From Microscillaceae bacterium (GTDB lineage Bacteria > Bacteroidota > Bacteroidia > Cytophagales > Microscillaceae), in assembly GCA_025054775.1 (NCBI GenBank), contig JANWZA010000026.1:1-64000 (forward strand): 64,000 nt of DNA, read 5' to 3'. The position numbers and the translations under genes were made by a program. Of the stretch, positions 446 through 51,497 are shown in pieces. The notes under the pieces were generated by a model. That model saw only the letters and a program-made list of their open reading frames with translations. It was not told the origin of the DNA and made no database searches. Each line of letters opens with the position of its first letter. The first letter of the stretch is position 1.

Positions 446-3265
446 ATGTTCAAAAGAAACGCTTTTCTATGTTTATCTATTTGGGTAACTTTTTTCATAA
501 AAGCCCAAGATTTGAGTGATGTAAACAAGCCTTTAAGTTTAGACCCAAATGTAAAAATAGGTAAGCTACCTAACGGTATTACTTACTACGTGCGCAAAAA
601 TGCCAAACCTGAGAAAAAAGTGGAACTACGTTTGGTTGTCAATGCAGGTTCCATTTTGGAAGATGATGACCAGCTTGGCTTGGCACACTTTATGGAACAT
701 ATGTGTTTTAATGGCACAAAAAATTTTCCTAAAAACGAATTAGTAGCCTTTTTACAAGGCTTGGGTATTCGTTTTGGAGCAGATTTGAACGCTTACACAA
801 GTTTTGACGAAACAGTGTATATTCTTCCTGTACCTTTGGACAAGCCCGAAAATTTGGATAAAGGTTTTCAAGTATTGCAAGATTGGGCTTTTAATGCTAC
901 TTTGGACAATGCTGAAATAGACAAAGAGCGTGGCGTAGTCATTGAGGAATGGCGTCTTGGACGTGGGGCTTCGCAACGTATGCAGGATAAATGGCTTCCC
1001 GTGATGCTCAAAGGTTCACGATATGCCGAAAGATTACCTATCGGTAAAAAAGAAATTCTAGAGAGCTTCAAGTATGACGTTATTAAGCGTTTCTATAAAG
1101 ATTGGTATAGACCAGACCTCATGGCAGTAATTGCTGTAGGTGATGTAGAACCCGCAACATTAGAGGCAAAAATCAAACAATTTTTTGGAAATGCACCTGC
1201 TATAACCAACCCACGCAAGCGCGAAGTGTATGGGGTGCCTGCCAAAACTCAAATGCAAGCCGTAGTAACTACTGACAAGGAGGCCCCCAATGTTACGGTT
1301 TTTTTAACCTACGATATTGAGGACAAGCCCATGACAAAAATCATTGACTACAAAGCTAAACTTACCAAAGATTTGTTTACTAGCATGTTCAATGCGCGGT
1401 TAGATGAACTTCGCCAAAAATCTACGCCTCCATTTATTTTTGCGGGAAGTTTTGTGGGTAATTTATTTGCACGTAATCAAAACGCTTATGGCTTGCAAGG
1501 TGTGCTTAGTGAGCAAAATATTGAATTAGGCTTAAAAACGCTTTTTGAAGAGCAACAACGCCTCAAAAAACACGGCTTTATCGCCTCGGAATTAGAGAGA
1601 GCTAAAAAGCGTATTTTCACTAACATGGAGCGGGCTTTCAAGGAAAAAGATAAAACCGAATCCGAGCAATATGTAAGCGAATACGTGAGCCATTTTTTGG
1701 AAAACGAGCCTGCTCCTGGAATTGAAATGGAATTTGCTATGACGCAAAAATTTCTGCCTGAAATTACTTTGGACGAAGTAAATGCTTTGGTAAAACAATG
1801 GATTAACGACAACAAAGCTACTATCGTTTTGATGGCTCCAGAAAAAGAAGGTTTACAAGTCCCTACCGAAGAGCAAATCAAAAAAATGGCAATAGAAATT
1901 GCTAACCAAAATATTGAGCCTTACCAAGAGAAAGCAGTAGCCGCCTCTTTACTCAATGAACTACCCAAAGTAGGTAAAATTACCAAAGAGGAGAAAAATG
2001 CTAAACTCGGCACTACTACGCTCACATTTGCTAACGGTGCCACCGTAGTATTAAAACCTACAGACTTTAAGAATGACCAAATTCTATTCAGTTCTTATAG
2101 CTGGGGAGGACATTCCCTTTATGCTGATAGCGATTATCACAGCGTAAGCTATGCCGCAGGTATTGTAAATGAAAGTGGGGTAGAGGGCTTCCCTAAACCT
2201 GATTTGCAAAAATTTCTAGCAGGTAAAACCGTTAACATCAACTCTTATATTTCCGAACTCTCCGAAGGGTTTAGTGGGAATACTCGCCCCGAAGACTTAG
2301 AGACTTTTTTGCAACTGCTCTACCTTTACTTCACTAAGCCTCTTAAAAATGAGGAAGCCTTTAAGTCATTGATAAACAGACAAAAAGCACAATTCAAGAA
2401 CATTTTAGCCAACCCACAGATTTACTTTATTAGTGAAGCTAATAAAATTATTTACAACAACAATATTCGTAGGAAAGCTTTTCCACAAGATGAAGACTTT
2501 GAAAAAATAAACCTTGACAAAGCCCTGCAATTCTACAAAGAACGCTTCGCTAATGCTGCTGAGTTCAAATTCATATTCGTAGGTAGCTTTGAAGTAGAAA
2601 AAATAAAACCCTTGTTAGAACAATACATCGGTAGCTTACCTGCCCAACCTAATGCTCCCAAAGAAAAATTTAAGAATTTGAAAATCAAGCCCGTAGCAGG
2701 TGTATTAGAAAAAGAAATCTATAAAGGTACCGATGAGAAAAGTGTAGTACGTATGACCTATTTTGGAGATTTGAAAAAATACGAAGGTACAGAAAATTTT
2801 GCCCTTCGCAGTGTTGCAGAGTGGCTCAACATTAAACTCATAGAATTGCTACGTGAGGAAAAGGGAGGAGTGTATGGAGTAGGCGCTTCAGCAAACATGA
2901 ACAAGAATCCTGAACCTACCTACGAGCTCACCATCAACTTCCCATGCGCTCCCCAAAATGTAGCCGATTTAAGCAAATCTGCCTTAAGTTTGGTAGAAAA
3001 ACTGAAAAAAGAGGGGGTAGCCCCTGCCGATTTAGCCAAAATCAAAGAGCAGTACAAAAAAGAACTTGATGTAAACCTTAAAGAGAACCGTTATTGGTTA
3101 AATTCCTTGCAACGCTATGACCAACTCGGCGAAAATCCTGAAAAAATATTGGAAGCTCAAGCCAATATTGATAAGCTAACAGGCAAAATGATACAAGATG
3201 CTGCAAAGAAATATCTTACAGGCAAAAATTTCATAAAACTTGTTTTACTCCCCGAGAAAAAGTAA
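446..3265 (+). CDS. Secreted M16 family zinc metallopeptidase (pitrilysin-like)
   Basis: A 939-residue two-domain protease. Residues 1-20 form a signal peptide ending before Gln21, so it acts in the periplasm or at the cell surface. The inverted zinc motif HFMEH gives ligands His81 and His85 with catalytic Glu84, and Glu161 is the expected third ligand 76 residues later. The second, non-catalytic half ends with the family's GGVYGVGA segment near residue 810, which helps close the clamshell. Full length for the secreted Bacteroidota M16 family; these proteins cut peptides small enough to enter the chamber. The true substrate is unknown. Monocistronic: it has its own promoter and a hairpin follows the stop. 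Confidence 0.93.
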   Translation: MFKRNAFLCLSIWVTFFIKAQDLSDVNKPLSLDPNVKIGKLPNGITYYVRKNAKPEKKVELRLVVNAGSILEDDDQLGLAHFMEHMCFNGTKNFPKNELVAFLQGLGIRFGADLNAYTSFDETVYILPVPLDKPENLDKGFQVLQDWAFNATLDNAEIDKERGVVIEEWRLGRGASQRMQDKWLPVMLKGSRYAERLPIGKKEILESFKYDVIKRFYKDWYRPDLMAVIAVGDVEPATLEAKIKQFFGNAPAITNPRKREVYGVPAKTQMQAVVTTDKEAPNVTVFLTYDIEDKPMTKIIDYKAKLTKDLFTSMFNARLDELRQKSTPPFIFAGSFVGNLFARNQNAYGLQGVLSEQNIELGLKTLFEEQQRLKKHGFIASELERAKKRIFTNMERAFKEKDKTESEQYVSEYVSHFLENEPAPGIEMEFAMTQKFLPEITLDEVNALVKQWINDNKATIVLMAPEKEGLQVPTEEQIKKMAIEIANQNIEPYQEKAVAASLLNELPKVGKITKEEKNAKLGTTTLTFANGATVVLKPTDFKNDQILFSSYSWGGHSLYADSDYHSVSYAAGIVNESGVEGFPKPDLQKFLAGKTVNINSYISELSEGFSGNTRPEDLETFLQLLYLYFTKPLKNEEAFKSLINRQKAQFKNILANPQIYFISEANKIIYNNNIRRKAFPQDEDFEKINLDKALQFYKERFANAAEFKFIFVGSFEVEKIKPLLEQYIGSLPAQPNAPKEKFKNLKIKPVAGVLEKEIYKGTDEKSVVRMTYFGDLKKYEGTENFALRSVAEWLNIKLIELLREEKGGVYGVGASANMNKNPEPTYELTINFPCAPQNVADLSKSALSLVEKLKKEGVAPADLAKIKEQYKKELDVNLKENRYWLNSLQRYDQLGENPEKILEAQANIDKLTGKMIQDAAKKYLTGKNFIKLVLLPEKK

Positions 3266-7256: not shown

Positions 7257-7320
7257 GAAGTAAAAGGAAAAAAAATTGAAAAATATTTTTTATCTTTTAA
7301 GTATTCCTTTTTGTTTTTTC

Positions 7321-7410
7321 ACTTTCGCTCAAAGGAAAAGAGGGCGGGCTACTCTAGAGTTACTCCGCACTCCCTACCGATGGCGGCACACCCTCAGTAT
7401 CCCTTGACGC
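7321..7410 (-). repeat. Leader repeat, copy A (upstream of adenylate cyclase)
   Basis: Read on the minus strand this element starts GCGTCAAGGGATACTGAGGG and ends TTTGAGCGAAAGT, 65 bases before the cyclase start codon. It shares the GCGT..AGGGAT..GAGGG beginning and the CCTTTGAGCGAA end with copy B (9241-9365) and the beginning with copy C (51375-51497). GAGGGTG near its start can pair with CGCCCTC near its end, allowing one G-U pair. The base composition is much richer in G and C than its surroundings. Confidence 0.65.
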
Positions 7411-7628
7411 AATTTTTTGCTAAAAGTACGATTTTTTTCTAAAACAAATACGTTTTCTTAAAAAATAAGTTGTTTTCCAACACACGTTAAACTACTCGTT
7501 TGTAAAGTTTCTAAATAAAAAGCTCCTTTTACAAAGGATTAAAGTTAAAGACTAATACTAATTACAACTTAGCTGTTTTCGCAAAATTTTGATTCTAGTT
7601 TGGTACTTTTACCTGAAACCCACTTTCC

Positions 7629-9211: not shown

Positions 9212-9240
9212 TGAGGTATTACCTTTCAAACTTACAATTT

Positions 9241-9365
9241 GCGTTAGGGATTGGAAGGGCAAACCCGAAAGAAGGGCTTGGTGCAAAGCACTAAAGCGGT
9301 AGCGCCTGTAAAGTCTACCCCTTCGCCCTTTGAGCGAAGCGAAAAGGGCGAAGGGAACACCTAAA
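9241..9365 (+). repeat. Leader repeat, copy B (upstream of TPR histidine kinase)
   Basis: The element begins GCGTTAGGGATTGGAAGGGC and ends in a strong hairpin: CCCTTCGCCCTTT (9319-9331) pairs perfectly with AAAGGGCGAAGGG (9343-9355) around an 11-base loop. The early AAGGGC could instead pair with GCCCTT, giving a competing fold. It shares start and end motifs with copies A and C and lies 67 bases before the start codon at 9433, in the gene's orientation. Confidence 0.7.
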
Positions 9366-39696: not shown

Positions 39697-40476
39697 ATGT
39701 TGCTCAATGGTAAAAACATAGGGCGCCCTCCGCAACGCATTATTTCGCTTGTACCTTCGCTTACCGAACTTTTGGCAAGTTTAGGCTTGCAAGAGCAAAT
39801 TGTGGGCATTACCAAGTTTTGTATCCACCCCAGAGAATTATACCAAAAAACACCCAAAATTGGTGGTACAAAAAGATTTCACTTTGATAGAATCCATGCC
39901 CTTAACCCTGATTTGATTATCGCTAACAAAGAAGAGAATTACAAAGAGGGCATAGAAGAGCTAGCCCAAAGGTATGCAGTTTTTCTAACTGAAATTATCA
40001 CTTGGCAAGAAGCTTTGCAAGCTATTCAAGCCATAGGAGAACTTACGCACCGCAAAGCAGAAAGTAATGCATTAGTGCAACAAATTGAGCAATCCTTTAA
40101 TAATCTACCCCGACAAAATATTAAGAAATCACCCAAAATAGCTTATTTAATTTGGCATGAGCCTATTATGGTAGCGGCAAACCAAACCTTTATTCAAACT
40201 ATGTTGCAAAAAGCAGGTTTTGAAAATGCCTTTGCTCACCTTAACCGTTATCCCCAAATCCTACCTCAAGATTTACAAAAATCCGAAATAGACTATATTT
40301 TTCTAAGTTCAGAGCCTTTTCCTTTTAAGGAAAAACATATTCAATACTATCAAGCCCTTTGCCCACAAGTAAAGGTACTTTTAGTTAATGGTGAAATGTT
40401 TTCATGGTATGGTAGCCGCTTGCTACATAGTGCTAAATATCTTGCTCAATTATGGCAAAATTTACTCATTCAATAA
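39697..40476 (+). CDS. Helical-backbone metal receptor (BtuF/TroA-like) without signal peptide
   Basis: A 259-residue protein of the periplasmic-binding superfamily that carries metals or vitamin B12 to ABC transporters. PQRIISLVPSLTELLASLGL (12-31) and VGITKFCIHP, then KIGGTKRF, match the family. It starts MLLNGKNIG with no signal peptide, so it is predicted cytosolic, which is recurrent in Bacteroidota but unlike classic receptors. No permease or ATPase gene is near. Its last 11 bases overlap the end of the convergent SPFH gene. Confidence 0.82.
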   Translation: MLLNGKNIGRPPQRIISLVPSLTELLASLGLQEQIVGITKFCIHPRELYQKTPKIGGTKRFHFDRIHALNPDLIIANKEENYKEGIEELAQRYAVFLTEIITWQEALQAIQAIGELTHRKAESNALVQQIEQSFNNLPRQNIKKSPKIAYLIWHEPIMVAANQTFIQTMLQKAGFENAFAHLNRYPQILPQDLQKSEIDYIFLSSEPFPFKEKHIQYYQALCPQVKVLLVNGEMFSWYGSRLLHSAKYLAQLWQNLLIQ

Positions 40477-51344: not shown

Positions 51345-51374
51345 AGAACTTTTTCATAAATCAAGTATCCTTTT

Positions 51375-51497
51375 GCGTTTTTAGGGATGCGAAGGGAGTG
51401 CCGTAAGCCACAAGGCAAAGCACGAGAGCAAAACAAACCTTGCGCAGCCCGTTGCCTCAAAGCCTCTCGCCTTAGCGAGAGCTGAGAGAATGCCCTG
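51375..51497 (+). repeat. Leader repeat, copy C (upstream of rfaE2)
   Basis: Begins GCGTTTTTAGGGATGCGAAG and contains the CTCTCGCC/TTAG/CGAGAG hairpin near its end (51464-51481). It shares the GCGT..AGGGAT..GAAGGG start with copies A and B and a GAGCGA/TAGCGA element near the end, and lies 30 bases before the rfaE2 start in the same orientation. GC-rich against AT-rich flanks. Confidence 0.65.

Follow-up and report, generated by a model that had tools for sequence, protein, structure and literature searches.

Flavo-1, one of the described repeats closest to the one studied here, was first presented as a candidate structured RNA (PMC2864571) and was later counted among the abundant sRNAs in a review (PMC9029176); Rfam lists it (RF01705, gathering threshold 42 bits) as 'Gene; sRNA'. 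In F. psychrophilum, Flavo-1 matches lie sense or antisense to transcripts with no preference (PMC9723704), which agrees with a view of them as mobile DNA. The nearest mobile analogues are the GTAG/CGTC REPs with their RAYTs (PMC3733652, PMC6006769), and for TnpA_REP subclass 2.6 of Bacteroidetes, flanking 'atypical secondary structures' have been reported (PMC6006769).

Here we analyse a repeat that occurs three times (copies A, B and C) in the window, by which we mean the whole 64,000-nucleotide stretch of Microscillaceae DNA under study. With Flavo-1 it has in common the anchors GCGTNAGGGAT, AGCCCG and ACGCCC in the same order, a closing helix GCGTN/NACGC, a second helix GGG/CCC, a terminal hairpin and dispersal in multiple copies. 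It differs in its inner part, which reads GGGATTGAAAGGG…CCCTGCAAAGCCC and forms several hairpins where Flavo-1 has GGGATNGNAGCGG…AGCGGATAGCCC and a single one, and in that the evidence speaks for DNA and not RNA, whereas Flavo-1 is catalogued as an sRNA. Like REP/REPIN-RAYT systems, it is a short palindrome that is dispersed between genes, has copies in decay and leaves no target duplication, but it is longer and multi-branched and lacks both a linked Y1 transposase and the GTAG or CGTC tag that marks the foot of a REP hairpin of 20-40 bp, its consensus starting with TTGCGTTAGGGAT and extending over about 125 bp. It resembles MITEs in being non-autonomous and multi-copy, with short inverted ends (GCGTT/AACGC) and precise boundaries, and departs from them in showing no target duplication, in its conserved non-palindromic interior loop and in that no parent transposon with matching ends was found. 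In the literature that we searched, neither this branch nor a family spanning several phyla had been described before, and the text of the core sequence retrieved matches that were, judged by title, all unrelated.

Results

An earlier note on this DNA had pointed to three related GC-rich islands, and all three were found where it had placed them (Table 1). The window was scanned, with filters off, with R1, a covariance model built from 31 copies in this genome that include B but neither A nor C. Copy B, being a training copy, scored 113 bits; copy A reached 29.7 bits, with E 1e-4 for the window and 0.005 for the whole genome, and copy C, the weakest member, 20.3 bits (E 0.015 and 0.66, respectively). 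The top window matches also include an antisense self-hit of the hairpin of B, and the next place after the three copies has 14.5 bits (E 0.31). The segment GCGTTAGGGATTGGAAGGG of copy B has one mismatch to a 19-nt core that occurs 39 times in the genome. Because the genome-wide E value of copy C is only 0.66, its membership rests partly on the letters AGGGATGCGAAGGG, GCGCAGCCCG, GCAGCCCG and AATGCCC, which are common to the L037/L224 subfamily; copy A can be aligned with the same subfamily, and we regard C, with reserve, as a probable family member. All three copies fold better than their dinucleotide shuffles (z -2.9, -4.1 and -3.4). The 13-bp terminal hairpin previously noticed in B is exact, and the complementarity between start and end noticed in A and B corresponds to the closing helix of the family, partly eroded in both.

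Table 1. Location of the repeat copies and their helices in the window, and of IS1-like elements on contigs of the genome
Feature	Position	Strand	Remarks
Copy A	7297..7412	-	Diverged, decayed; in divergent spacer between cyclase-domain gene (minus) and Obg GTPase gene (plus)
Copy B	9239..9364	+	Full-length, main (type 1) subfamily; between DUF486 gene and TPR histidine-kinase gene
Copy B, closing helix P1, 5' strand GCGTT	9241..9245	+	From family structure and sequence
Copy B, P1 partner AACAC	9356-9360		One C.A mismatch against GCGTT
Copy B, terminal hairpin P4, 5' arm CCCTTCGCCCTTT	9319..9331	+	13-bp perfect stem
Copy B, terminal hairpin P4, 3' arm AAAGGGCGAAGGG	9343..9355	+	13-bp perfect stem
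Copy C	51373..51497	+	Most diverged; 5' of cytidylyltransferase-like gene; subfamily with AGGGATGCG-AGGG and GCAGCCCG
IS1-like copy	C42, ~8.1-8.8 kb		L387
IS1-like copy	C6		L381
IS1-like copy	C50		L404
IS1-like copy	C64		L399
IS1-like copy	C53		L219
IS1-like copy	C4, start		L389
IS1-like partial copy	C61		L380
IS1-like partial copy	C18		L385

A count of the copies in the genome, one of the checks that the earlier note had named, gave about 67 in 3.01 Mb: R1 produced 96 matches, antisense self-hits included, and re-searching the loci around them left 65 after removal of one duplicate, to which A and C were added. These copies form a gradation, from 157 bits for intact ones down to 20 bits for decayed ones; many of them are near-identical, and the core GCGTTAGGGATTGAAAGGG, with up to three mismatches allowed, has 39 genome matches against none for the reversed pattern. 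Their flanks are unrelated, and the conservation profile drops sharply to background at both ends; a conserved AT-rich tail past the 3' end, considered at one point, vanishes in this profile. Neither a target duplication (flanks match one another as shuffled flanks do, k=4-9) nor a clear insertion site was seen. Of the 59 genes next to the 31 best copies, most come from distinct, unrelated housekeeping families, and the 25 families listed include no transposase. The copies are intergenic and lie in either orientation, with neighbours that are divergent in 18 cases, sense in 16, antisense in 12 and convergent in 6. Since there is no replication-strand bias between copies on one contig, and the correlation with GC skew is weak (r 0.31, p 0.019, from overlapping windows), single-strand transposition is unsupported by these data. 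Some contig ends coincide with repeat copies, namely the end of C43 and the start of C50 (L029, L035) and the start of C57 and the end of C13 (L211, L212); C43 and C50 have their copy and its flank in common, and these two contigs may thus be neighbours.

The element, with the consensus TTGCGTTAGGGATTGAAAGGGCAAGCCCGAAGGGCTTGGTGCGAAGCACCGAAGCGTTAGCGAAGCCCTGCAAAGCCCGCCCTTTTGCCCTTTGAGC-AGCGAAAAGGGCAAAAGGAACGCCCAA, adopts a clover-like fold, in which the closing helix, P1 (GCGTT/AACGC), is followed by P2 (GGG/CCC); an inner helix, P3 (AGGGC/GCCCT), encloses two or three hairpins (P3a-P3c), and a long terminal hairpin, P4, abuts the closing helix. Covariation, the other named check, is strong: double changes occur in 39 of the 41 pairs, none of 500 shuffles reaches the observed score and slid controls fall far below it. 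It likewise exceeds all shuffles and slid controls on a MAFFT alignment made without fitting to the structure, except that the number of further pair types is unremarkable there, being reached in 87 of 500 shuffles. The terminal inverted repeats of P1 also carry compensatory changes, and the inner loop GGGATTGAAA/CAAAGCCC is non-palindromic and conserved across phyla. Copy number and covariation together bear out the proposal that the islands belong to an old, structure-conserved repeat family. The accompanying remark that they are not recent mobile copies holds for A and C and fails for the family as a whole, which we judge to be mobile-like because of its many near-identical copies, its sharp boundaries and a Flavo-1-type empty site in another genus (see below). 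Six copies have the tip of P4 in inverted orientation (L231 being left out as spurious), that of L046 is the exact reverse complement of the tip of L028, and one derivative, L050 (C5:36224), forms a fold-back whose 5' end is inverted; the tip inversions and the fold-back are DNA-level events.

In RNA helices G·U pairs survive and A·C pairs do not. A marked excess of G·U over A·C is therefore expected when one strand is read as RNA, and equal numbers are expected of a palindrome that is kept as DNA or decays neutrally. In the stems of the family, sampled from mostly decaying copies, we counted 196 G·U against 199 A·C (ratio 0.98, bootstrap 0.77-1.25); the corresponding counts are 70 and 76 in the 33 best copies and 58 and 72 in the unfitted alignment, as compared with 45 and 0 in the control, 30 tRNAs of the same genome. 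This equality argues against maintenance of the stems as RNA at most sites, and it is compatible with a possible RNA step or intermediate in a few active copies. The P1 helix of Flavo-1-type copies shows four G·U and no A·C, with few informative cells and in copies picked by their intact core. The comparison of G·U with A·C offers a cheap general test for telling covarying repeats that are maintained as RNA from those maintained as DNA.

No Rfam family matches the window either at gathering thresholds or at E<=5, Flavo-1 has no match in the whole genome at E<=0.001, and none of the type-1 loci, L021 and L037 included, reaches the Flavo-1 gathering threshold. Two loci that pass this threshold (L150, L179) share GCGTNAGGGAT…AGCCCG…ACGCCC with the copies in this genome, and Rfam Flavo-1 matches in relatives read GCGTGAGGGATAGNAGCGG … AGCGGATAGCCCGACCC-hairpin-GGGGCACGCCC; R1, applied to several Flavo-1-type loci, gave 15-33 bits. 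A Flavo-1-type core is present in 92 of 395 Bacteroidia genomes, with matches to the reversed pattern almost absent, and the closing helix of this type covaries too (81 copies; at the fifth pair, T-A in 45, G-C in 32 and A-T in 2). The type-1 core extends to Pedobacter, Mucilaginibacter, Bacteroidales, Spirochaetes and Gammaproteobacteria, and among 20 distant loci with the 5' core, the 3' core lies downstream in 19 and upstream in none, the lone exception being a chance match in coding sequence. For Pedobacter, R1 gave 45-56 bits, for most copies from spirochaetes 35-50 and for Gammaproteobacteria 23-30, with the qualification that, although the model was built from copies of this genome only, the distant loci had been selected by the 19-nt core, which is part of the score. 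Type-1 copies of Pedobacter, Mucilaginibacter, Spirochaetes and Gammaproteobacteria have the identical 19-nt core, the same 3' core and the same end, but their hairpins differ entirely from those seen here in sequence and length, and the gammaproteobacterial ones are without the terminal hairpin. The earlier suggestion of kinship with repeats of other Bacteroidota is thus substantiated by anchors common to Rfam Flavo-1 copies and Pedobacter copies, and we propose, on the strength of sequence comparison, that the family is probably a branch, within Bacteroidota, of a larger superfamily to which Rfam's Flavo-1 also belongs, being sister to the Flavo-1 branch. One Spirochaetales MAG carries long-hairpin versions of type 1 on five contigs (L132, L139, L141, L148 and L149), one of which has two copies in opposite orientation. 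In another locus (L178 of G168, ~1348-1521, minus strand), an apparent CGTC-tagged REP pair, CGTCATTACGAG…CGCAATGAC, sits inside the P3 hairpin of a Flavo-1-type copy, as if one repeat family were nested in another.

A filled and an empty site could be compared for a Flavo-1-type copy in another genus. In G347, the copy fills a spacer of 130 bp between two genes that look, judged by eye, like a putative acetolactate synthase pair, whereas eight congeners have 5-21 bp there. In two further congeners (L304 of G428 and L305 of G446) the same spacer holds unrelated palindromes of the ACAGATTTGTAATCTGT type, so this spacer would appear to attract or tolerate insertions.

No transposase or autonomous parent was found. 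The Y1 transposase (PF01797) has no match in this genome despite its roughly 67 copies, and the element lies within 1.5 kb of only 2 of 59 Y1 loci in Bacteroidia, which is about chance by our estimate, even though it adjoins a Y1 gene in G032 and G157; on these counts Y1/RAYT was rejected as a linked helper. Of other candidates, those orphan 3' cores that we inspected as possible parent ends proved to be coding sequence, and the ends of an IS1-like element differ from those of the repeat. The consensus of this genome has no plasmid or phage match; on viral contigs, the Flavo-1-type core has 50 matches, accompanied by the 3' core in only 10, and the type-1 core three, accompanied by it in none.

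Discussion

In our view, A, B and C are likely to represent a mobile DNA repeat of about 125 bp, dispersed and non-autonomous, that has a closed multi-branched fold and belongs to a branch of the Flavo-1 superfamily. In the model that we propose, a helper enzyme acting in trans would recognise the folded single strand through its closing helix and the inner loop and would copy or move the element into AT-rich spacers, where inserted copies would decay neutrally; in this genome the helper may have been lost or have escaped recognition. The pairing would then be carried by source elements and by palindrome-templated repair, and not by selection for an RNA at each site. The single-strand step of this model is an inference. 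A point against a mobile repeat is that the conservation of the inner loop across phyla exceeds what a parasite would strictly need.

Could the copies instead be conserved functional RNAs, either sRNAs or cis-regulatory elements, that are transcribed and whose fold is selected as RNA, as the Rfam entry for Flavo-1 would imply? The strong covariation found here and in the closing helix of Flavo-1-type copies is what such an RNA would display, Flavo-1 is both catalogued as an sRNA and reviewed among the abundant ones (PMC9029176), and P2 taken alone has 33 G·U against 7 A·C. However, one side of P2 consists of the conserved letters AGGGAT, the stems overall show G·U and A·C in the equal numbers that set them apart from tRNAs, and the copies lie in mixed orientation to genes, just as Flavo-1 lacks a strand preference in F. 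psychrophilum (PMC9723704). Mobile DNA is to be preferred over conserved RNA because of this equality, the inversions of the P4 tip and the Flavo-1-type empty site, and we regard a functional RNA as unlikely. Slightly more doubtful still is a REPIN or REP element mobilised by a RAYT, that is, a Y1 transposase: the literature on TnpA_REP subclass 2.6 (PMC6006769) and the two genomes in which a Y1 gene adjoins the element speak for it, but the near-chance proximity elsewhere, the lack of any Y1 match here, the missing tag and a length three to five times that of a REP all speak against it.

Terminators of transcription, or hairpins that stabilise mRNA, would, if recombination had duplicated them, account for long GC-rich hairpins in AT-rich spacers. 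Such elements would hardly be expected to be rare in convergent gaps and common in divergent ones, or to sit inside a two-gene unit, as does the Flavo-1-type copy of G347, and it is an A-run, not a T-run, that follows the hairpin, so that this explanation is very improbable. A chance similarity of GC-rich spacers, finally, is refuted for A and B by the core matches, with none for the reversed pattern, by the number of copies and by the covariation; copy C, marginal genome-wide, could be a chance match, and as an account of the islands together chance deserves hardly any credence.

A bolder extension of the mobile-repeat model, which we put forward tentatively and to which we give somewhat less than even chances, is that Flavo-1 itself is not an RNA gene but a branch of structured mobile DNA that spans Bacteroidota, Spirochaetes and Gammaproteobacteria, the inner loop being the recognition site of a helper enzyme outside the known RAYT system. 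If these repeats are mobile DNA, the annotation of Flavo-1 as an sRNA and searches for its RNA targets would be misdirected, and the enzyme that mobilises them, with its very conserved recognition structure, would still have to be found. For this genome, the family accounts for GC-rich spacers and several contig ends.

Two other repeats came to light in the course of this work. The IS1-like element measures ~740 bp, has the inverted ends TGTTAATTTTGTATAGAT / ATCTATACTATTTTAACA and is accompanied by deleted derivatives in this genome; four of the eight copies in Table 1 are found no more than 200 bp from a copy of the repeat, a figure possibly biased by the choice of chunks around repeats. A second short palindrome, CTTTCCAAAAGTT…AACTTTTGGAAAG, occurs at position 39767 of the window and in the flanks of L044, L046, L049, L056 and L210, and was counted 23 times in 1.02 Mb of this genome, in partly overlapping windows, against three times for the reversed pattern.
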